A stretch of 64,000 bases of DNA, from positions 744,001 through 808,000 of the forward strand of contig OZ014423.1 in the NCBI GenBank assembly GCA_963965975.1, read 5' to 3'. The notes below the pieces were generated by a model. That model did not search any database and was not told where the DNA came from. It saw nothing but the letters and a program-made list of their open reading frames with translations. A program made the position numbers and the translations under genes. The stretch comes from Xestospongia bergquistia. Its lineage: Eukaryota; Porifera; Demospongiae; Haplosclerida; Petrosiidae. Every line of letters starts with the position of its first letter. The first letter of the stretch is position 1. Shown one piece after another: positions 3,596 to 44,160 of this stretch.

Positions 3596-14233
<10,638 letters not shown>

Positions 14234-16831: not shown

Positions 16832-24955
<8,124 letters not shown>

Positions 24956-26097: not shown

Positions 26098-26976
26098 TTA
26101 AAATGGGAGATTGTCTTTGTTTGTTTCAAGGTAATTTCGAAATGTTTTGACTTTTGGATTCAAACGTTTGGTGAGGGCTATATCTCTGTCTGGATTTCCA
26201 AAGTCATAGAAATGAAACATATTGGCAATATCATCTGCTCCTGGAAAACCAAGTTTAGCATAATCTTCATAAGACAACTTATGGAGTTGGACAGTAACTC
26301 CAGTGACTTCTTTAATATGCTCTACAATCTGGTCAAAGGTGAGTTTATCTCCAGATAACCCTATCTTCTTACCAATGAATTCTTCAGGCTGAGAAAACAT
26401 CGCTGCTACAACAGGTCCCAAGTCTTCAACACTAACTCCATCCATTGGTCCTTCCATACATGTGATGATGATATATGATCCATCATCTTGTTTTTTAGGG
26501 AATAAAGTGATGATGCTTTCATAATAAGCTGCTAAACGTATTGATGTGTATGGTATTGCAATATTCTCCAAGTATTTCTCAATATCTCCTTTACCATCAA
26601 AATGAGGACAATCGCGTCCAGTGATCTCTTTAACTGATTCCAGTCCACTGAAAATGAGATGCTTTATGCCTTCTTTCTTGCAGGCATCACCTACAAGCTT
26701 GCCTTGTTTTATTTCTCTCTCTTTATCGAAAATTTCCCAGTAGTTCGTGACAAGATAAACTCCATATGCGTCAGCAATGGCTGTCTCTATGCTTGCTTGA
26801 TCATCCAAATTTCCTTTAACTATCTCCACACCTTGACTTTTTAGAGCCTTGGCTTTATCTCCATCTGGATTTCTTGTAACTCCACGTATTTTGTATCCCC
26901 CACGTGCAAGTAATCCACGAACAACTGAACCTCCTTGTTGCCCTGTAGCTCCAAAGACAGTGATAAGTTTGGACAT
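26098..26976 (-). CDS. NMRAL1: NmrA-like family NAD(P)-binding protein, copy 2
   Basis: A 292-residue single-exon paralogue of copy 1, with the same Rossmann start (ITVFGATGQQGG), TNYWEIFDKEREIKQGK, HFDGKGDIEKYL, and the NMRAL1 C-terminal signature GFPGADDIANMFHFYD. The segment around residues 150-165 differs most (YYESIITLFPKKQDDGS against YFESLISSNQKQDDGS), and so does the C-terminal 20. I chose the Met at 26,976 because it aligns with copy 1 and with the family start. The frame stays open for another 78 codons to a Met at 27,210; that stretch has no family resemblance and is probably 5' leader. An NADP(H)-sensing cytosolic role is inferred from the family. Confidence 0.92.
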   Translation of the reverse strand: MSKLITVFGATGQQGGSVVRGLLARGGYKIRGVTRNPDGDKAKALKSQGVEIVKGNLDDQASIETAIADAYGVYLVTNYWEIFDKEREIKQGKLVGDACKKEGIKHLIFSGLESVKEITGRDCPHFDGKGDIEKYLENIAIPYTSIRLAAYYESIITLFPKKQDDGSYIIITCMEGPMDGVSVEDLGPVVAAMFSQPEEFIGKKIGLSGDKLTFDQIVEHIKEVTGVTVQLHKLSYEDYAKLGFPGADDIANMFHFYDFGNPDRDIALTKRLNPKVKTFRNYLETNKDNLPF

Positions 26977-29381
26977 CCTCTTTTTTGCTATGTTTTTGCA
27001 GATAAAAGCATTAAATTTTGCAGTTTTTTGCAAAGATTCAATCTTTTTATACCTGGTGTTGCTCCAACGCGACTGCAATAAACCAGCCACACCCCTACGA
27101 GTACGCTTCTGACTCGATACGTCACTTGTCATGCTTAGGACCATGATGGACCCATAAAAAATATCCCATTCACAAGAAGGAATTAAAATAATTGTATTTA
27201 ATTTTGCCACTACAGTACAAACATTTACTTTGTTAGACTTCGCTGGGACTTATTCAATCTTAGGTTTAAAGTGCAAAGTATAGCATCTTATGTAATATTG
27301 TAGATATACATATTGGCATAATTAGACTAAAAGCCAGTCATGACAGTGTACGTCACTGATCATGGATAACATGTTATGCTTCTGTGTTTAAAAACAATAG
27401 TTAATTTTTAATAATTATTGATATTATTATGATAATTATGTTAGACCATGTAGCAAGGTAGGTGGATGAATGGATGGTGCAGTGTAAATGATAATTTGCA
27501 GGTGCCTTGTCTGTCACTTGACTTCAAAGAGCTCTTTTACAAAAGACAGTTTTTATTGTATTATTAACACATGAATTATAGCCAGAAACTTTCATATGAG
27601 AAACTTGAAATCACCTATCTTAGCTCTTAGCACTTCTAAGACACATTCAGCCCCGCCTATTTATCAATGCAACACACACTAATATTAATGTATTGTGTAT
27701 TTAAAACTATTCACTTCATATAATTAATAGAATTATGAAAATATAGTTTTATTAATGGTTTCTGTCAATACTAACTCATTGTCAATTAGGTTCTAATCAT
27801 GGTAAATAGATGACAACCACACATCAACTTCAGTAGTGTTTGTTTCAGGCCCTTTAGGGGAGAAAATTCCCCCTCCCTAAAACATGCACATAATTATAGT
27901 AGTTATTACTTAACAGTTCTTAACAGTTACCTCTCAACAGAAATATTCCCCCCTCAACTAACCACATCACCAAAAATGACAAGTCTAAAATAAACACTGA
28001 AATTCAGAGATTATGCAGAATTTTTAATAGATTGTCAAATGAACCAACCTGTGTATGATTGAGTTTGTGCTGTTGTGGTATTTTATTTACTATTAGTGAT
28101 TCCATATCAAAGGTACAGATTATGTAACAACTTGTAACATTACATAACAGAGTGTGTTATGCATACATACATCAACTTTGAACTCAAGCTGATACATAAA
28201 CCAATCCCAGAATTGTTAATGGTGTATATGCTGCTAGATTTAACACTGTTCCATGTACTGGATGTAAATACTTCTGTTAAATGAAAATTGAGGTTATTGT
28301 CCATTTTCGTATGTCATCTTCCTTCTGTTATTATGTAAATTGCATGATAGGAGTGACTATTGTGCCAAGTTAATAAATTTATTCATAAATTATTAAATTT
28401 AAAAAATCCCCATACTCATGTTTGCACCTAATAATACAAAAAGAGACCTGTTGTCTGTCAATTAGGACTGCACTATGTAGAAATCATCCCTGATATGTGT
28501 ATGTTGTAATAATACTGACAAAATGCCATGGGTTTGCCATTATTAATAGCTACAACTATAACTGATTTGTTGAGTGAACAGATCAACTCTAATTCATATC
28601 TTTTAACAATGTAACTGTAACTATAACTGATTTGTTGAGTGAACAGATCAACTCTAATTCATATCTTTTAACAATGTAAGTCTTAATTTATTGTGGTTAA
28701 TTGTGAAAGAACCAAATTCTGGTGCTGAGGTGAGATGAGCTACACCCATTGGAGAATTTGTGGTTACAAAGTTTTTTTCTACTCTTCAAAGATCCTCCCA
28801 ATGTGTTTAAAATATACTTTATTAACCAGTGTATGGCTGAAATCAACTGACCACAACACAAATTTTCATTGTATGAACTAAGGAAGAACTGTACTGCGGG
28901 TATCCCATGAAGTGTTCGACAGATATAGACATCTTCATTAACATAATGTACTTACGTACATAATTATAGTATTTAAAATTATCAACTGTTCTTAATAAAA
29001 CTATCAATAATCAAGAACATTTTATGCTAAAATGTATGATGTGAAGAAAACATACAATGTGACTTGTTATAAGTATGGTTTCCATCATTAATTGTGATTT
29101 ACACTTTTTAAATCTTTTAATCACACTATTACCACCATATGCACAATCAGACACCACAAATTATATTATTCATAAGATGGTCAACAATCAAGAGGCTTAG
29201 AGCTCAAGTGAAGGACTTTGTAATTGCTCACCAGCTATCACTCAAGAGTTCTTTAGTCTGGGTTCAGTTATGTGAAGAATAAATTACAGATACTCTCTGG
29301 ATTAAAGAAATAATATTAAAGTCAGTATAATTATAATTATGTGTATATAGTATTGCAAGATCTTGCTGCTTCTTGACAGAA
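26977..29381. other. Intergenic region between NMRAL1 copy 2 and the forkhead gene
   Basis: 2.4 kb of AT-rich sequence flanked by two divergent gene starts, so it should carry both promoters. It contains a 65-bp tandem duplication (28,554-28,679). No RNA gene or protein-coding exon was recognised. Confidence 0.5.
28554..28679. repeat. Tandem duplication, 65-bp period
   Basis: A 61-bp block beginning aactataactgatttgttg occurs twice with no visible difference at a spacing of 65 bp. It lies about 700 bp upstream of the forkhead gene. Exact identity implies a recent event. Confidence 0.9.
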
Positions 29382-34663: not shown

Positions 34664-35661
34664 TTAAAGACAAGGATTACGATTATAATAACCGCGATAA
34701 TAATGATTATCACGACAATATAATCCAATAGTGAGTCCAATCACTAGTACTGTTACAATACCAGTATATATTAAATTGAGAATGCTGAGTACAGCAGCCA
34801 CATATCCCTGGAACTTAGTAGCTGAATATTTTCCTTCTTTCTTAGCATTATAGGCCTTTTTCATGGAAAAAAATCAATAAAAAATTTTAATAGATATCAT
34901 AAAGCATTGTAACAGTCTCCCATATCTACACATGCATTTTTGCTGTCCTTCCTGTCAGTTCATTCTTCATCAATAAATTCTCTTGTAGCTATGTTAATAA
35001 CCAATCATAGTGGATGTAAGTGTTATGCTTTAACGAGGACAGGAAATGGATTTGTTAATATATGATCAGAAATTACATTATTACATCTATTGATAGTAAT
35101 ACAAAGAGTATTGTATTAGCAAATAAATGTTGGAATTAGTAAATTCAATGCTGGCTTGATTGGTCACATAGCACTCATAATAGTGCATTGTTTAACTCAA
35201 GTTAAATAACTATGACCAGATGTATTATTAAAATATTATAATTTCACTTACCCATACAGCATAGAGTAAGGCAGGAATACCAAATATCAAAGATGTGAGA
35301 TTTAACATAGCACACCCTAAGGTAACAACTGTAGTAAGGACTAAATTATGATTTGGAAGAAGACGACGATCAATTGGTTGGGGGGCCACCTGAGTCTAGA
35401 TACAAAATAAATTATTAAAATTACATATAATATACATTTATTTACTGGTTGTGGCATAAACACCATTCCTCCTTGTGGTCCAGCTACATACCGTACTGGT
35501 ACAGGTTGTGGTACTGCCATCATCATAGGCTGCTGACCAGCAGGAATCATAGGCTGACTAGCAGGAACTATAGGCTGACCAGGGACCGCCACTGACATTG
35601 GCTGACCGGAAGAAATTGGTTGACCAGAAGTGGAAAATTGGGTTTGACTTGTCCCAGACAT
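34664..35661 (-). CDS. CD225/dispanin-like small membrane protein 1
   Basis: A three-exon gene: 35446-35661, 35252-35395 and 34664-34855, 216+144+192 nt, 183 residues. Exon 1 encodes a Pro/Gln/Met-rich cytosolic N-terminus (SSGQPMSVAV; GQQPMMMAVPQPVPVRY). Exon 2 encodes a conserved TQVAPQPIDRRLLP strip and hydrophobic helix 1 (LVLTTVVTLGCAMLNLTSLIF, which includes a Cys that could be acylated). The intron falls right after it, and exon 3 encodes AYNAKKEGKYSATKFQG and helix 2. The pattern of Pro-rich tail, helix, short basic loop with GxY, then helix resembles the CD225 (dispanin/IFITM) family, but the match is by eye. Exons 2 and 3 are nearly identical to those at 42,523-43,120. It is the leftmost member of the local cluster. 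Confidence 0.75.
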
Positions 35662-36238
35662 AAGTGTCTCTTCTGCAATAAAAAACAAGTTGACGTTGTG
35701 AGAGTTCCCCCGCGGACATTATTCATTGTATGACCTTATTAGGTAACGTACTGCCCTCCCTCAAGTGAATAATAAATCACGTCCCCCTTGTCATGGGAAT
35801 GTTTCGGTAATTACTTCGCTAATTTCTGTGTATAGTTTACTATGGAATGTAGACAAATTTGTCAACGGGAATTGTCACATCAGCAGATGATATTGACAGT
35901 ATTATACTAATATGTATAAAAATCAGAGGTAATTTCACTCAATTTAATGAATATTGTCCTAGAGTTCAGTAGTGAATAATGTCCAGGTTCTGGAGGAAAG
36001 ACGAATTATGATAGGACATTGGTGTGCAAGGGGATGTGCTGCAGTATGGAATTAGTTCTTATAATTTTATGACAAAAGACTTTTTGACTTTTATGATGTA
36101 GATTAAACTACGTAAATTAAATTATAATACATTTTAAGAATTATAGATTTGCTGAAGACAAAGTTAAACAATTCTGGCACTATACCATAACATTAAACAT
36201 CAACATCAATGAGATACATAATCACTTCCACTCTAACT

Positions 36239-36345
36239 ACCTATCCATCTGTTCAGCCAGTAATATAGCTAATGACAGTACATAGTTCATCAAATCCTAA
36301 ATTGAGATTACCTCCAGAGTTTCAACGACGAATTATACTACTATT
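36239..36345 (+). pseudogene. Decayed exon 2 of a CD225-like gene (copy of the 40,551 gene)
   Basis: About 100 bp align with exon 2 of the gene at 40,551-41,308, including an exact match of acctccagagtttcaac (the PPEFQ codons). The frame is then lost and the helix-coding part is gone. It lies between CD225-like genes 1 and 2, where a rightward gene would be expected from the layout of the next block. Confidence 0.7.
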
Positions 36346-36732
36346 ACATTTAGATTTTAAAAAACATTGAAAGTATTTAAAGCATTTTCTCTATGTCTTA
36401 TTGAGGAGGACTGTATGGTGTGGCATTAGTGCCAAAAATAACTTTCATTTAAATATCATGACAGAATGCACCTTCTTCACCTTAATGGTAAGCATCTTTA
36501 CAAAAAGAGGGAAATGAAAAGTTTTTTAGTTAATAGCTTACTCTATCCTTGCACCTTTTTTTACAGTAACCATCCTCATAATGATCATATCCTTTTCATA
36601 ACCACATTCTTTTAATGCAAGTTGCACTGATACTACACCACAGACATCTGAGAGGGGGTCTAATGGTGTCCCCGGAGACAATCAAATTATTCGTGTCCTG
36701 GGGGAACAAACTTGCAGCGACAATCATCGACA

Positions 36733-38192
36733 ATGGCCAACGAAGCTCCTCCATCTTATCACGAAATTCATGGCACACCTGGTACCTCTACAACACAGCG
36801 AAGTACTGGAGTAGTAAGTCAAGGACAATCTGGTCTATCATCGACTTCACAACAAGGATCTAATACTACTCGACAAGGACCTATAGCTAGTACAGTATCG
36901 GTAGCTACTCCACAAGGACCTGGTATGATACCAGTGGCTACTGCACAAGGACCTGGTATGATACCAGTGGCTACTCCACAAGGACCTGGTATTGTACCAG
37001 CGGCTACTCCACAAGGACCTCGTATGATACCAGCGGCTAGTCCACAAGGACCTCATATGATACCAGTGGCTACTGCACAAGGACCTGGTATGATTCCAGT
37101 GGCTACTGCACAAGGACCTGGTATGATACCAGTGGCTACTCCACAAGGACCTGGTATTGTACCAGCAGCTACTCCACAAGGACCTCATATGGTACCAATG
37201 GCTACTCCACAAGGACCTGGTATGATGACAATGCCTGGTCAACCAATGACCTATGTGAGTAGTAACTTATCTCCAGACTTGGATGGCTATTAATAGAAGT
37301 CCATTGGGACAGTCTGAGATTAACAAATATCTTTATACTGATCCCTACCGCTAAACATTAAACCTTAAGTATGTGTCTCGAGGTTCAGACTGTCCCACTG
37401 GACTTCTACAGTGTAGCCTAGTATATTCATTATATTGTACACTCAATTGTTAAAATGAAATTGGTAATTAACTTGGCCATCACTTAATGATGACTTGTGG
37501 TTAGTGACCACTCCCTTACAAACAATTAATTAGTACAGTAGTACTGCCTGTACTAGAAGTATGATAGTCTCATTCCCAGACTCTCTGACATTTGGGCACT
37601 CAAATATTAGGAGTCTGAGAATGAGACTAGATTATTTACAACACTATTGATATGCATTTTAAAATATTAATTATACTATTTTTTTCTGTTTTAGATGCAA
37701 CCATATTATCCCAATATGATGCCATATCCCTACATTCCTGCTCCTACTCTTCCTCCTGAGTTTGTCCCTAATGATTACCTGATAATGACAATAATTTTGA
37801 CAATTGCTTTTGGTTTCTTTCAAATAACTTCACTAATGTTTTTTATTCCAGCTCTGGTAGGATCAATGATGGTAAGTTAGTTTAAATAATAATTTTTTGT
37901 ATACTTGTATAATTAATATCAATATTAATTTAATAAATATACTGCTTATTAATAATTTAGTCTCTTATTTTAATTAACAGATTTGGTTTATTAGCTTTTT
38001 TGTTGTTGTCTTTATTAATATTTTTAATAGGCTATTCAGAAGAAGAACAATGGCATTCAATTTTACGTTGAAGCAAAACGATTTGGATATGCAGCTCTGA
38101 TTTTAGATGTTGTTGGAATTGTGTGGGTCATTTTAACTGCTATTAGTATCATTATTGGTATAATGGTACCAGTTTATACATCTAATTATTAA
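36733..38192 (+). CDS. CD225/dispanin-like membrane protein 2 with an 11-residue repeat tail
   Basis: A three-exon gene: 36733-37254, 37695-37871 and 38031-38192, 861 nt, 286 residues. Exon 1 encodes MANEAPPSYHEIHG (a PPxY-like motif that could bind WW domains), then a Ser/Thr/Gln-rich stretch and ten 11-residue repeats of the type VATPQGPGMIP. Exon 2 encodes LPPEFVPNDYLIMT and helix 1 ending FFIPALVGSMM. Exon 3 encodes AIQKKNNGIQFYVEAKRFGYAALIL and helix 2. The intron position between helix 1 and the loop is the same as in the other cluster members, showing common descent. The repeats are collagen-like in composition but do not have the Gly-X-Y period. Two foldback repeats lie in intron 1. 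Confidence 0.75.
36901..37230 (+). repeat. Coding 33-bp minisatellite, ten units
   Basis: Ten in-frame 33-bp units inside exon 1 encode variants of VATPQGPGMIP. Units 6-8 repeat the order of units 1-3 (GMIP, GMIP, GIVP endings), which suggests that blocks of several units were duplicated together. An antisense open frame over the same region is a by-product of the repeat. Confidence 0.9.
37294..37408. repeat. Foldback repeat, 24-bp arms
   Basis: Arms 37,294-37,317 and 37,385-37,408 are inverted complements with 23 of 24 matches around a 67-bp centre. It begins right after the stop-containing start of intron 1 of CD225-like gene 2. Size and shape are those of a MITE-like element. Confidence 0.8.
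37565..37629. repeat. Foldback repeat, 20-bp arms
   Basis: Arms at 37,565-37,584 and 37,610-37,629 are inverted complements with 18 of 20 matches (core gtctcatt). This is a second foldback in the same 440-bp intron. Confidence 0.75.
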
Positions 38193-38288
38193 CTGTTAAT
38201 ATAGATTTTACATTTAAAAAATGATGATATTTTTTTAATCATTATCAACAACTCATCATAAACATTATCTTGTGTTGTAATGTATTTT

Positions 38289-38426
38289 GAGTCCTGTTAG
38301 AAAATGTTATACTTTAATGTGAATTATATATATATATATTACTAAAATCTAGACCCTATATCTTAAACTTTGGAACCCAAAGTGTATTAATTTCACATTA
38401 AAGTATTGCTTTTTCTAAGAGGACTC
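38289..38426. mobile_element. Putative 138-bp MITE
   Basis: Terminal inverted repeats of about 35 bp at 38,289-38,323 and 38,392-38,426 (outer ends gagtcct and aggactc) match at most positions around an AT-rich centre. No clear target-site duplication was seen, and no coding capacity. It lies about 100 bp past the stop of CD225-like gene 2. Confidence 0.65.
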
Positions 38427-39476
38427 GCTGTTTTTTATATTCATAACTTTCAAAATTAGTTTTGTTGCTGATAAGATCACTCATCTGACTCGTGTTATTT
38501 GTGGTCTTCCAAACTTGGAAATCAATATGTAAACAACTAGTTTACTTAAGGGTTTGTAATACTATAGTCTTTTAATAAATTAAGGACAAGCTGGTTTTGT
38601 ATCATCCCCAGCTGTTAGGATTCAAATTAATACTAATATAATTACAATGACTTAATTTGCAGATCTGGCAGTTATTTAATAATAATCATTGCATGTATCA
38701 TTTGACAAAACACATTCTAAGAATGTCATATTCCATATAAGGATAAGAGGAATGTCACTTCCCCTATAGGGATTGGAGTATATATGATACAGTCCATGAT
38801 TACTCTATTCGCATTCTTAATTTGTTTAACAGGCACCAACACTTGACTTCATGTCTGGCAGAAAGATTCCAGCTGTTTTGTTAATATTACCAAGAGCCAT
38901 ATTTCATAAGACAAGTAATCTGGATAGTGTTGAACTCAGTAATATTATACATATCATATACAGGGGTGGAGACAGCTACTGAAAAGTGGGGGGCAAGTGC
39001 TTAGTGAAGAATCAGATAGATGTAAATGAAAATCTTATTTAAAAAAATTAACTAAAAATTACCAAAGTGAGGAGTGCAATTCGTCATGCATACTTGTGTA
39101 TCACACAGTCAAAAATCAAACAGTAAGGGGACAGAGTTCCCCTTAGTTCTCCACCACTGATATATTATTATTAATAAGATTTTGGAGGACCTGGTAGACT
39201 CTTCCTGCTACAATTGTAACAGTCCATGGAGGGAAATATTTCATTTTTAGGTAATAATGAACCAATAATTTATAATTAATTTATTACGTATATATCTCCC
39301 TAACCATTAGTAGCCTTAATTGTAAGTAATTTCTGTTTAATGTCTGTTATGTTATTAAGAAATAAAAAAAGAACAGAATAAATATAACATTAAACTCATA
39401 AGTAACAACTTGCCAATGAAACATTTTCTTATAAAAAATAAAAAAAACTGATGAAGTTGATGAAGCATATATGTAC
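38427..39476. other. Gap between convergent CD225-like genes 2 and 3
   Basis: AT-rich sequence with no coding exon, RNA gene or remnant that I could match to the cluster. Confidence 0.5.
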
Positions 39477-40447
39477 TTAACAACCGTAACTTTTAGAACG
39501 ACAATGCAATCCAAGACTAAGTCCAATTAGGAACACTGTTATAAAACCAGTGTAAGCAATATTGAGAATACTAAGTACAACAGCCAAATATCCTTGTAAC
39601 TTAGCAGTGGAATATCTTCCTTCTTTCTTAGCATTGTAGGCCTGTGTGATGAAATATGACATGTATGGTAAAAAGGTAACATAAGATGTACTGTAGTATC
39701 TATAATAACTATTAGGAAAAAATGGGCTTTTTATATTTGGACTCTGTTGTAAACGAGACAAGGTTTGCAAAAGCTATAATTAAAGGAGGAATAGCTTCCA
39801 TCCATACTAGTACTCATAGTTAAAATGAAATGACTTTGTGTGCATCAATGTCAGCAGTTAGTTATTATAATAAAATACAACAATAGAAAATATTAATAAT
39901 GAAAATGGACACAGACATCATGTATATCATGTAGTGTATATGGTCCAAACTAATCTTTGAACTGCTATAAGTACACATGATACACAAACAATGATAAACA
40001 AGTAATTAGTTTGAAGTTCACTTAAAGTATGCTATTAAGTAATTTTACTTACCAATACAGAACATAATAATGCAGGAATACCAAATATCAAAGATGAGAT
40101 ATTTAACATAGCACATCCCAGAGTAACAAGTGTAGTTATAACTAAATTATGACTTGGAAGAAGACGACGATCAATTGGTTGGGCCACCTGAGTCTAGATA
40201 CAAAACAAATTATTACACATAATATACATTCATTTACTGGTTGTGGCATGTACACCATTCCTCCTTGTGGTCCAGCTACATACCGTACTGGTACAGGTTG
40301 TGGTGCTGCCATCATCATAGGCTGCTGACCAGCAGGAATCATAGGCCGACCGGAGGCCGCCACTGACATTGGCTGACCTGAAGACATTGATTGACTAAGA
40401 GTACTAACTGGTCCAGTCGAAGATTGGGTTTGACCTATTCCTGACAT
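39477..40447 (-). CDS. CD225/dispanin-like small membrane protein 3
   Basis: A three-exon gene: 40238-40447, 40053-40193 and 39477-39641, 516 nt, 171 residues. It is the same type as genes 1 and 5, with a Pro/Gln/Met-rich N-terminus (SSGQPMSVAA; QQPMMMAAPQPVPVRY), the strip TQVAQPIDRRLLP, helix 1 (VITTLVTLGCAMLNISSLIF), the loop AYNAKKEGRYSTAKLQGY, helix 2 and a short tail HCRSKSYGC. Splice sites fall at the same codons as in genes 1 and 5. Helix 2 and the tail have diverged more than between genes 1 and 5. Its start codon is only 103 bp from that of gene 4. Confidence 0.75.
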
Positions 40448-40550
40448 AATTCAAAAATCTTTGGGTGTGGTCTGACAGAGTAATTTCTTAATTAATTAAA
40501 AGACGCCTATCTCTTCTCTATGTATCAACGTACAGTCCACATAAATAGAC
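40448..40550. promoter_or_regulatory. Divergent promoter of CD225-like genes 3 and 4
   Basis: 103 bp separate the two ATGs, so both genes must be driven from this interval or from within each other's leader. No specific factor site was assigned. Confidence 0.55.
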
Positions 40551-41308
40551 ATGGCAGATAACGAGAAAGAGGCAATACCTCCCGAATATCCCACTTCTTC
40601 AACACAGGTAAACCTAATTAAGTAAAGCGAGTCTTTTAATCTAATACTTTATCATTGACATTAGCCACAACAATTGGCTTCTGCTACACCAACCTATCAT
40701 CCACAAGTTCAACCATCAATGATAGTCTATGAACCTCTAGAGATACCTCCAGAGTTTCAACCACCAGACTACCTACCTCTCGCAATAATCGTTGGTATTA
40801 TCTGTGCCTTCTTTAATATAACATCTTTATTCCTGTCCTTCCCAGCCTTGATCTTTTCAGTCATGGTAAATTAAACGTAGAATATTTGTAATGTGTCTGG
40901 TTTCAACTTACTGTATATGTTTTAATCACAATTATTAACATAATAGTGGTAAACACTATAGGAACATTGTCTTGTAGCTAGACACGTACAAGTTTCAATC
41001 ACATAACATTCCTAACAGAATGATATCAATAATGCTTCATTCTGAATATGTATACACATATACAGATAAATTAAATTAATATAGAATTTCTACTTGTTCA
41101 TAATAGTTATAATAATAATTTTCTCATTCTTTATTAGGCAGTCAATTATAAGAGCAAGAGGCAATATGTCATTGCAAAGAGAATGGGAATGGCTGCACTA
41201 ATTTTCATTCTTTTGACTGTTCTATGGGACGTTGCATGGGCCATTACTATTATGGCTCTCATTACTTGGTTCTGGTGGTTTGTATTTGTACCTAGTCTAG
41301 AATATTAA
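40551..41308 (+). CDS. CD225/dispanin-like small membrane protein 4
   Basis: A three-exon gene: 40551-40607, 40665-40865 and 41138-41308, 429 nt, 142 residues. It has a short acidic start (MADNEKEAIPPEYPTSS, with PPEY), then LEIPPEFQPPDYLPLAIIVG and helix 1 ending SFPALIFSVM. Exon 3 encodes AVNYKSKRQYVIAKRMGMAALIF and a Trp-rich second helix (WDVAWAITIMALITWFWWFVF). It is closest to gene 2 in the PPEF-DYL segment but lacks the repeat tail. Intron positions are shared with the whole cluster. Membrane location is inferred from the two hydrophobic stretches; function is unknown. Confidence 0.75.
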
Positions 41309-41631
41309 GAAGCCATATAATATGTATTTTGTTTTATTCTGTTTTTATGTTTCAAAACAGCTGCAGTCAAAAATGTTTTTTTAAAATGCAAACAAATGCA
41401 CTTTATAGTTGAATTGAGTGATGCTCCATATTTTGTTGCATACAGTAATTATTGTTGATTATAATTGTTAATGGATTTTCCTCCATGTGACCATACATGT
41501 ACTAAATATGGTAACATGCTGATGTAATTATGTTACTATATTTAGGGTTTAGTAATAAATATAATCAAGGATATGGATTCTAGGACCTGCAACGTTAACA
41601 GATGAGTGCTGTTGTTATTATTACTTATGAA

Positions 41632-41745
41632 ACATTTTTATGTTGAAGCAAAAAGATTTAGGCAAGCAGCTTTGATATTGGATGTTGTTGGAGTAATGTG
41701 GTTTATATTAATTGTTAATTATTGTTATTATTGTTAGCATAATGA
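41632..41745 (+). pseudogene. Decayed exon 3 of a CD225-like gene (copy of gene 2)
   Basis: About 110 bp align closely with exon 3 of the gene at 36,733-38,192. The readable part is FYVEAKRFRQAALILDVVGVMWFIL, then a stop. No exons 1 or 2 of this type were found between it and gene 4. It occupies the place where a gene-2-like gene would be expected. Confidence 0.8.
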
Positions 41746-42522
41746 TGTAATTCTTTTATGGTGCAATGAGAAACTAATTATCACATTATTGAAATCATTT
41801 TAACAATTCATCAGTGTAATATTTTGTTTGAATATCATTAGTATGAATGGAATTTGCACATGCCATTACAGAAAATTATTATTGATTTAGTACATTTGCT
41901 TTGTGTAACCTGATCCTATCTGATATCATATTATTGTCTTCATGTCTATTTATAGCAGTCAATTTTGTTTATAGACTGTCTCTGGTAGTAAACTGAAGAC
42001 TATAATAATACACTTAGCTTACCAGCAGATAAAAACAACATTAAATTATTATAACAAACATAACTATACTAATGATACCTTGCTCCATAAAAGTTAACAA
42101 TTAATTATGTTATATATGATGCTTTGGATCATTACTATAATCACTGATAATATACATCATTTCATGATACATGAATGAAATATCTCACTAATCAAATTAA
42201 TGACAATATTGTTATGTCAGCAATGGCCATCATATGAACTTTCTGCTAAACACTCACACTACTTTTGAAATTAAACAAAAAATGCAGTAGAACAATGACA
42301 ATGATTTTAGACGTTTTAGTATTTATATTTGTCTATTTTAACATGGTTTTCAATTATTATTAAATTATATGCAATGAAAATATTCTAGCATGTCTTGTTC
42401 CTTACTTATAAATACTTCACTTGGTCCTCAGGGATGCAGAATAAAATAAAAACAGTATTTTGTTGAAGTACCTTTATAAAAATTATATAATTAATACTGA
42501 AGAAATTTGCCAAATGTTAATG
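41746..42522. other. Gap between decayed exon and CD225-like gene 5
   Basis: AT-rich, no coding or structural feature recognised. Confidence 0.5.
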
Positions 42523-43377
42523 TTAACGACAACGATTACGGGAATACCTCCTATAATCATCATCACAATATAATCCAATAGTGAGTCCAATCACTAGTAC
42601 TGTTACAATACCAGTATATATTAAATTGAGAATGCTGAGTACAGCAGCCACATATCCCTGGAACTTAGTAGATGAATATTTTCCTTCTTTCTTAGCATTA
42701 TAGGCCTGTGTGATAAGAATATATTAGATATACTTAATAAATCATATAGCAGTCATATAATAGAAGTAAATTTGGTTGTTGTGTATCTCAGAAGTGAGTG
42801 GGCATATTAATTTTATACACAATATATCTTTAAATACAGTCAGATATTAAAATAGAACTAAAGAAATGATAATGGAGACAGAGATATACTTAATGTCTGT
42901 GTTTTGCCAAACAGATTTTTACATTACATTGCCAACTATGGCCACATGTATTATAAACTATTGTAATTTCACTTACCCATACAGCATAGAGTAAGGCAGG
43001 AATACCAAATATCAAAGATGTGAGATTTAATATAGCACATCCCATAGTAACAACTGTAGTAAGGACTAAATTATGACTTGGAAGAAGACGACGATCAATT
43101 GGTTGGGAGGCTACCTGAGTCTAGATACAAAATAAATCATTAAAATTACATATAATATACATTCATTTACTGGTTGTGGCATAAACACCATTCCTCCTTG
43201 TGGTCCAGCTACATACCGTACTGGTACAGGTTGTGGTACTGCCATCATCACAGGCTGCTGATCATTAGAAGACACAGCTGCAGGCTGACCAGGTGACGCT
43301 ATTGATATCGGCTGATGTGAAGACACCGGTCGATCAGAAGTCCTTACTGGTCTAGTTGAAGGGTGTTGTTGACCCAT
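42523..43377 (-). CDS. CD225/dispanin-like small membrane protein 5
   Basis: A three-exon gene: 43171-43377, 42977-43120 and 42523-42705, 534 nt, 177 residues. Exons 2 and 3 are nearly identical to those of gene 1 (TQVASQPIDRRLLP; VLTTVVTMGCAILNLTSLIF; AYNAKKEGKYSSTKFQGY), including intron-border sequence. The N-terminal exon has diverged (MGQQHPSTRPVRTSDRPVSS) but keeps the final PVPVRYVAGPQGG block. Strong similarity in the helix exons combined with a diverged first exon suggests recent duplication or gene conversion limited to the 3' part. The C-terminus is basic (RRYSRNRCR). Confidence 0.75.
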
Positions 43378-43489
43378 CTTCTTAGCTACACTTTCACTTC
43401 CCCGATCGAAATTATTAACGGAGTATAAAGCGGCTTCACTCGTAAGATTAACGATTATGATGTTATTATGCTAATACTCAGCCAGACAG

Positions 43490-44160
43490 TAAGCCAATTA
43501 GGGGAATCTAGTCTATCAACTTAACACAACAAGTGTCTACCAATGACTACTCTACAAAGATTATATTACCAATTGCTATTCCACAAGGACATGCATAACA
43601 AGATGATAGGATAGAGCGAGGCCAGTTAAAAAATGACCTATTAGTTTACAATGTGGCTCTCCTGCCTTTAACAAACAATATACTTCAATATAAAATTATA
43701 TATTTCTGTTCCAAGGTTTAGAGTTTGGAGTCTAGAGTATAGCATCATATTGAAGTAAAATGCTGTCAGTAGAATAGCTACATTGGTTAGTTTAAGAACT
43801 ATAATACAGGTTACTAATAATTTTGTAATAAAAATAATAATGGTAAGAATTTGTTTATCTTGGGTTCTTTTCAATTTACTTTATTGATATTTATTAGCCC
43901 AGCTTTGATAACTTTACTGATAGTAAATTTATTATAATTATATAGTAATTAGTATATATTATGACAATTTTGATAATGATTTGTAATTAATCCACTAACC
44001 ATTCATAATTACTTTTAGTTCCATTAATCATTTTCATAGAGTATTGTTTAATGAGCTGTTTAGAAGAAGAGATATCAATCTAATGAAGTTCATTTTTGGC
44101 TCAAGAAAGAATATTCATTGGTTAAGCAACTTTAATGTCATGTACTAGAGTTGGTATAGG
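43490..44160 (+). pseudogene. Decayed copy of CD225-like gene 2
   Basis: Three segments align in order with gene 2. 43,490-43,605 matches the start of exon 1, including one repeat unit (ttaccaattgctattccacaagg). 43,889-43,925 matches the end of exon 2 and its donor region. 44,048-44,150 matches exon 3 at roughly 60%. Stops and indels break all frames. It is oriented head-to-head with gene 5, just as gene 4 is with gene 3. Confidence 0.7.

Follow-up and report, generated by a model that had tools for sequence, protein, structure and literature searches.

What are the genes that make up a compact cluster in the sponge Xestospongia bergquistia, and how did the cluster come to hold three kinds of gene in a repeated order with different members dead in each copy? 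The cluster occupies positions 34,664 to 44,160 of a 64,000-nucleotide stretch (assembly GCA_963965975.1, contig OZ014423.1, positions 744,001 to 808,000), which we refer to as the window and whose coordinates are used throughout. CD225, the family to which these genes had been assigned by pattern only, is the dispanin family, which includes the human antiviral IFITM proteins, and its members have been studied best as antiviral and synaptic proteins of vertebrates. Our preferred answer, to which we give a probability of about 0.72, is that the locus is a tandem cluster of divergent CD225/dispanin genes that arose by block duplication, lost members piecemeal and underwent gene conversion among its left-facing genes, with a role in membrane fusion and traffic proposed by analogy. 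The array holds three dispanin types (left, PPEFQ and QGP) in a repeated divergent arrangement. Two of the QGP copies and one PPEFQ copy are dead, a further PPEFQ position is vacant, and the three left-type genes are patchworks of each other's sequence.

Five three-exon genes lie exactly at the positions named in the original prediction (34,664; 36,733; 39,477; 40,551; 42,523). All five spliced reading frames close, and all ten introns are GT-AG introns in phase 0; exon 1 encodes a proline- and glutamine-rich tail (short in gene 4), exon 2 the first helix, and exon 3 the loop and second helix. The predicted live genes, with the E-value and bit score of each protein against CD225, and the one head-to-head gap given by the gene models are as follows.

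34664..35661, minus strand: gene 1, left type, block A; exons 35661-35446, 35395-35252 and 34855-34664; 183 amino acids; E 1.3e-5, 25.7 bits.
36733..38192, plus strand: gene 2, QGP type, block A; exons 36733-37254, 37695-37871 and 38031-38192; 286 amino acids; E 0.0016, 19.0 bits.
39477..40447, minus strand: gene 3, left type, block B; exons 40447-40238, 40193-40053 and 39641-39477; 171 amino acids; E 3.4e-4, 21.1 bits.
40448..40550, strand not applicable: intergenic gap of 103 bp separating the start codons of genes 3 and 4.
40551..41308, plus strand: gene 4, PPEFQ type, block B; exons 40551-40607, 40665-40865 and 41138-41308; 142 amino acids; E 9e-6, 26.2 bits.
42523..43377, minus strand: gene 5, left type, block C; exons 43377-43171, 43120-42977 and 42705-42523; 177 amino acids; E 4.6e-5, 23.9 bits.

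Intron positions had been described as identical in all five genes. This holds for the intron between the helices, which falls in the same alignment column and phase in every gene, but for the tail intron only the phase is common, the proline common to the types being exon 2 residue 13-14 in the left type, 25 in the QGP type and 33 in the PPEFQ type. The second acceptor of gene 1 is ATGAAAAAG (AAAAAG), against CATCACACAG and TTATCACACAG (CACACAG) in genes 3 and 5, and the splicing of gene 1 therefore deserves a check. From the gene models, the 103-bp gap between genes 3 and 4 is probably a shared promoter; a scan of 40,440-40,560 for sigma-70 promoters and terminators found none, its models being bacterial and hence uninformative on animal promoters.

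Membership of the CD225/dispanin family is supported from several directions. CD225 (PF04505) is the best Pfam family for all five proteins (E 9e-6 to 1.6e-3), and each match extends over 66 of the 68 profile positions, though every one of them stays below the curated Pfam cut-off. Searches beyond the window covered the genome (146.46 Mb in 21 contigs, here numbered with the prefix C, the window being C13:744001-808000). When the five window domains were compared as a profile with five CD225 domains from contigs C12 and C3, this one pair gave an hhalign probability of 97.7 and E 1.9e-12 over 55 columns covering helix 1 and the loop, with helix 2 outside the match; four of the five comparison domains were scanned and score 38.8-88.2 bits. 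The same genome also provides a graded series of CD225 domains, at 88.2 and 61.3 bits (C12), 43.9 and 38.8 (C3), 26.4 (C13:6.09 Mb) and 20.4 (C9), in all six of the domains scanned. By eye, the C12 and C3 genes have the same split into helix-1 and helix-2 exons as the window genes; the C12 genes carry a double cysteine and the C3 genes a GD loop, whereas the window genes have neither.

The gene architecture points the same way. The published family (IFITM, PRRT2, TUSC5/TRARG1 and SynDIG among its members) is described as having two helices, a proline-rich N-terminal tail and a conserved splice site that separates the helices; some members have an additional N-terminal exon (PMC3282796). The window genes are alike in these features, and their inter-helix intron corresponds to the published site in five of five; hydropathy, with overlapping segments merged, predicts two hydrophobic regions in each protein, preceded by an N-terminal tail and followed by a short C-terminal one. 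The most conserved dispanin pattern is reported to be A-x6-A together with G-D in the loop, and in the portions of that description available to us G-D is not stated as a condition of membership (PMC3282796). A-x6-A is present in genes 2, 3 and 4, its first alanine being threonine in genes 1 and 5. G-D is found in none of the five (GK, GR, GK, GI and RQ stand in its place). The helix-1 double cysteine, which varies among dispanins and takes the form C-F-C in one subfamily (PMC3282796), is likewise absent from all five: genes 1, 3, 4 and 5 have a single cysteine and gene 2 has none, and gene 3 has a second, separate cysteine at the end of exon 2. The window genes further differ from the family profile by about 6-8 extra residues (72-74 residues over 66 profile positions). 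Collectively, the Pfam ranking, the bridge to canonical CD225 domains in the same genome and the dispanin splice site support these genes as divergent dispanins, a branch of the known family as judged from sequence, so the new two-helix membrane family that had been envisaged as an alternative is not needed.

The layout reads left (minus), PPEFQ (plus, dead), QGP (plus) in block A; left (minus), PPEFQ (plus), QGP (plus, dead) in block B; and left (minus), QGP (plus, dead) in block C. The repeated left, PPEFQ, QGP order with different members dead in each copy, as first proposed, is therefore confirmed. It includes three dead remnants.

36218..36342, plus strand: remnant 1, PPEFQ type; fragment of the helix-1 exon with an in-frame stop; gene 4 exon 2 score reached in 0/180 DNA and 0/694 protein controls.
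41633..41736, plus strand: remnant 2, QGP type; helix-2 exon alone; 78% identical to 38058-38160 (E 1.4e-16); score 58 with gene 2 exon 3, reached in 0/180 controls.
43488..44070, plus strand: remnant 3, QGP type; many stops; colinear with gene 2, from exon 1 as far as the beginning of exon 3.

Remnants had been placed near 36,239, 41,632 and 43,490, and each of them is present and fits its claimed type better than the other right-facing type, that at 36,239 being the weakest. In the self-comparison, remnants 2 and 3 align with gene 2 as expected from the earlier claim, but blastn at E 0.05 finds no match between remnant 1 and gene 4. The match of remnant 2 to gene 2 exon 3 extends over 104 columns, and by eye its frame is broken and it has no acceptor. 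Remnant 3 matches gene 2 exon 1 at 43,488-43,593 (67%, E 5.5e-5) and gene 2 exon 2 and intron 2 at 43,814-44,070 (61%, E 2.8e-9), in the same order as in gene 2; no control equals the scores of exons 1 and 2 as DNA (0/180) or of exon 2 as protein (0/694), and the exon 3 part stays within background, 18 of 180 controls scoring as high.

For remnant 1, gene 4 exons 1-2 as DNA align better than in any of 86 controls, 86 reverse-strand windows and 300 shuffles. Exon 2 alone scores 24 as DNA. As protein, the frame TTYPSVQPVI*...LPPEFQ (asterisk, stop) aligns with TPTYHPQVQPSMI...IPPEFQ of gene 4 at a score of 49, the maximum among the 694 overlapping control windows on both strands being 46. With the whole of gene 4 as query the result is not significant (reached by 9/86 controls, 14/86 reverse-strand controls and 6/300 shuffles); a related exon at C13:2.14 Mb is equalled in 7/180 controls and a fragment at C13:2.13 Mb in 72/180, and no helix-2 match was found for this remnant. 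We regard remnant 1 as very probably real.

The types were compared with the same controls. With helix-1 exons as protein, the PPEFQ query is equalled at remnant 1 in 0/694 controls and the QGP query in 45/694, and assignment of remnant 1 to the QGP type was rejected on these counts. At remnant 3 the relation is reversed (QGP 0/694, PPEFQ 101/694 as protein; QGP 0/180, PPEFQ 6/180 as DNA), and the protein counts led us to reject a PPEFQ assignment there. With helix-2 exons as DNA, remnant 2 gives 0/180 for QGP and 143/180 for PPEFQ.

In block C, no PPEFQ trace is seen between gene 5 and remnant 3. The start codon of gene 5 and the start of the remnant 3 match stand head to head only 110 bp apart, which leaves no room for a PPEFQ member. 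The proposed loss of that member from the third block agrees with this absence but is deduced from it. The layout is best read as the outcome of duplication after which each block lost different members, yet this reading is incomplete, in that the left-type exons look homogenised and the three types look older than the block.

The evidence for homogenisation comes from the left-type genes, which resemble one another in patches. In an alignment of the three, with pairs ordered 1-5, 1-3 and 3-5, identity is 79, 90 and 77% in exon 1, 96, 93 and 93% in intron 1, 94, 88 and 89% in exon 2, 56, 46 and 52% in intron 2 (with 67-160 gap columns), and 89, 70 and 71% in exon 3. For genes 1 and 5, intron 2 has 139 gap columns and a middle part without blastn match, and sliding windows in exon 3 are identical at 59/60, 60/60 and 60/60 positions; over the first 31 codons of that exon dS is 0 for this pair and 0.485 for either gene against gene 3. 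In exon 1, gene 1 shares its base with gene 3 at 33 sites, against 11 for gene 5; in exon 3 the balance is the opposite, with 42 sites for gene 5 and 4 for gene 3. The nearest relative of gene 1 switches inside exon 1, best between 35,513 and 35,526 (MaxChi chi-square 52.8; 33:8 before, 7:59 after), a switch that none of 10,000 permutations reaches when sites are treated as independent. Two homogenised tracts can be delimited on gene 1, and a genome search with one homogenised left tract gave three matches and no fourth copy.

35205..35550, minus strand: end of exon 1, intron 1, exon 2 and start of intron 2, common to genes 3 and 5 with differing extents; intron 1 93-96% identical.
34727..34850, minus strand: part of exon 3, identical or nearly so to gene 5.

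Judged from these patterns, exchange of exon-sized tracts by gene conversion appears to be the simplest account of the mosaic. This process, new in the present analysis, would overlay duplication and loss: a three-gene unit would have been duplicated as a block, its copies lost piecemeal, and the membrane domain of the left type kept alike by conversion. Since recent whole-gene duplication would have kept intron 2 alike, the divergence of that intron does not fit it, and left-type similarity was rejected as evidence of recent block duplication; with the exons homogenised, that similarity does not date the blocks. For the IFITM genes of vertebrates, the literature reports duplication, pseudogenes and birth-and-death evolution, and gene conversion in certain species (PMC3499546), so the cluster behaves like a known kind.

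The relatives of these genes elsewhere in the genome suggest that the three types are older than the block, because gene 4 and the left type join genes outside the cluster. In a domain tree of 13 rows (short domains with long branches, five of ten inner branches open, from which two joins are used), gene 4 is separated from gene 2 and placed beside a gene at C13:2.14 Mb (98/98), which lies 1.35 Mb from it; the left type is placed with an intronless gene on C9 (83/81, below the star of the tree tool). The latter (C9:1.2202-1.2207 Mb, a 183-amino-acid frame) is 41% identical to the left type and lacks the intron that dispanins keep between the helices; it is therefore probably a retrocopy, later duplicated. 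A partial second copy lies beside it (L038:2184-2732 is the gene and L038:3049-3426 the copy).

Genome-wide, PF04505 gives 53 matches at E 0.001, or 49 loci when matches within 900 bp are merged, and 82 matches at 77 loci at E 0.05; these counts are an approximate lower bound, the matches being mostly to single exons, merging being able to join or split genes, and some loci possibly being pseudogenes. The five window genes do not appear in these lists, because they match exon by exon. Arrays occur on C1 (1.63-1.84 and 3.53-3.67 Mb), C12, C3 and C4, with a single locus on C7. The two C1 regions (3.527-3.670 and 1.629-1.839 Mb) are large, with 15 matches each at E 0.001. Two pairs of C1 matches have the same score, the same frame length and the same stops: 3,599,241 (plus) with 3,614,536 (minus), and 3,606,052 with 3,620,744 (both minus). 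They suggest that segments were duplicated recently, in one case with inversion. The window cluster shows how dispanin genes arise, die and become homogenised in a genome with about 49 CD225 loci.

The tails of the three types differ in ways that bear on function. Gene 2 carries PPSYHEI at residues 6-12, in which PPxY overlaps YxxPhi on one tyrosine; PPNYEML of IFITM3 joins a NEDD4-binding PPxY and an AP-2-binding YxxPhi in the same manner (PMC13344045). In sets of 20,000 shuffles, PPxYxxPhi arises 13 times when the first 60 residues of gene 2 are permuted and, counted within the first 30 residues, 46 times when its whole exon 1 is permuted. Unlike IFITM3, gene 2 has three exons rather than two, different loop residues and a long tail of about ten copies of an 11-residue QGP repeat, which is encoded by a 33-bp tandem array (36904-37226, 9.8 copies). 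Elsewhere in the genome this tail has three weak matches only (23-31% identity, E 0.001-0.004). The tail of gene 4 has PPEY (PPxY arises in 355 of 20,000 shuffles of exon 1) and lacks the YxxPhi half, and a PPDY stands where helix 1 begins; by eye, the left-type tails have neither motif, and PPxY stands in four open frames beside C12 and C3 CD225 exons, which may belong to tails.

The unit of the gene 2 minisatellite is partly self-complementary, and an open frame runs along the opposite strand as well (36850-37266). Within and downstream of the gene, imperfect inverted repeats (38289-38426, with 42-nt arms that are 83% complementary; 37565-37629; 37294-37408) are possibly small non-autonomous transposons.

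Proteins of the IFITM3 and PRRT2 kind are described as associating in membranes and tuning fusion and traffic, and an R-SNARE-like feature of CD225, a central arginine with a conserved glycine in the loop, is described as absent from part of the human family (PMC11730294). At the presumed corresponding place in the loop we see by eye no arginine in the left type or in gene 2. By analogy with IFITM3 and PRRT2, the most likely role of the cluster would be to regulate membrane traffic and fusion: the proteins would reside in the plasma membrane or in endosomal membranes, with the CD225 region mediating their association, and would tune both processes. PPSYHEI of gene 2 is predicted to bind a NEDD4-like ubiquitin ligase through PPxY and the AP-2 adaptor through YxxPhi, and this recruitment could set the level and endocytosis of the protein as PPNYEML does in IFITM3. 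Because the tail motifs differ (both in the QGP type, PPxY without YxxPhi in the PPEFQ type, neither in the left type), the types may differ in address and turnover. Should the joined motif act as its IFITM3 counterpart does, this way of setting the level and endocytosis of dispanins would predate vertebrates or would have been invented twice.

An antiviral role of the cluster is possible. A bolder proposal, which we consider unlikely, is that the dispanins of this sponge form a large, fast-evolving arsenal (about 49 CD225 loci, many of them in arrays, plus divergent clusters), changing through duplication, death and conversion in the manner of vertebrate IFITM genes, for IFITM-like membrane defence or symbiont control, with an IFITM3-style switch in one tail; were this true, the ubiquitin and endocytosis switch would be ancestral or independently arisen. 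To our knowledge, no interferon is known for this animal, although no search aimed at one was made. Among the papers listed in our literature searches, we found no report of CD225 expansion in sponges or other invertebrates, which is not proof that none exists. In a survey of the Dispanin C subfamily, only half of 26 species had a member, and the subfamily is described as poorly conserved across metazoans (PMC7653359).

Several observations weigh against the reading of the locus as a block-duplicated dispanin cluster with an IFITM-like tail. None of the five proteins reaches the curated Pfam cut-off of 27.1 bits (they score 19.0-26.2, or 0.9 to 8.1 under it), and hmmsearch with the window profile finds no match among solved structures. 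The sorting motif of gene 2 is short and was noticed by eye before the shuffle test, and PPxY by itself arises 1,331 times when the complete exon 1 of gene 2 is shuffled 20,000 times, and 3,439 times when the longer tail of gene 4 is shuffled as often. Outside genes and remnants, self-comparison of 32-47 kb gives no colinear spacer match between blocks at E 0.05. The term block therefore rests on order and orientation, and either the blocks are old or their spacers have been replaced. The sub-threshold scores, the missing G-D motif and double cysteine, and the lack of a solved relative (a phmmer search with gene 1 gave two chance matches, best E 0.41) would be explained by a new two-helix membrane family that had reached a dispanin-like layout by convergence. 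The canonical CD225 profile from the same genome finds PRRT1 among solved structures at E 3.7e-20. Against such a family stand the first rank of CD225 for all five proteins, the profile match, the dispanin splice site and the graded series, and we find it hardly credible.

The unaligned spacers and the empty PPEFQ slot in block C also suit gene-by-gene tandem duplications and inversions that produced the order by chance, without block duplication. However, a threefold left-PPEFQ-QGP series minus one PPEFQ represents 3 of the 560 orders of three left, two PPEFQ and three QGP members (by arithmetic, orientation ignored), and the left types all lie on one strand with the others all on the opposite strand, which makes this origin rather unlikely. 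Block duplication and reciprocal loss alone, with the similarity of the left genes due to recent duplication, would account for the repeated order with different dead members and for the single gapped blastn alignment that joins genes 1 and 3 across both introns (1001 columns, 68%); it does not account for genes 1 and 5 being identical over stretches of exon 3 yet so diverged in intron 2, or for the switch of nearest relative within gene 1 exon 1, and we judge it improbable. The high identity of the left-type tracts could also reflect purifying selection at the nucleotide level on a regulatory or splicing element, a view favoured by the likeness of the exon 1 end and intron 1 in all three pairs, and one that may hold for that stretch. 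The exon 3 sites that are identical in genes 1 and 5 can nevertheless vary, because gene 3 differs from both there, and selection of this kind seems to us very improbable as a substitute for gene conversion.

The cluster lies among animal-type gene frames. A scan of ten flanking frames, one of which had no match, identified macro, WWE and PARP domains as in PARP14, together with a forkhead domain, an NmrA-like protein, a RING/B-box protein and a Kelch-BTB protein; an Rfam scan of the window gave no match at gathering scores. The PARP14-like frames (macro, macro plus WWE, PARP) lie at 3-1312, 2149-2439 and 8479-14230, with extra PARP pieces upstream of the PARP14-like gene at 577-1044 (scanned) and 2149-2439 (by eye), and make up a second tandem family that may include dead copies. 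A hAT transposase dimerisation domain is found at 4186-4641 (E 1.5e-14) within minus-strand frames at 4186-6154, and the frames beside it resemble further pieces. Two NmrA-like frames on the minus strand (22194-23129 and 26101-27249, the second of which was scanned) are highly alike by eye.

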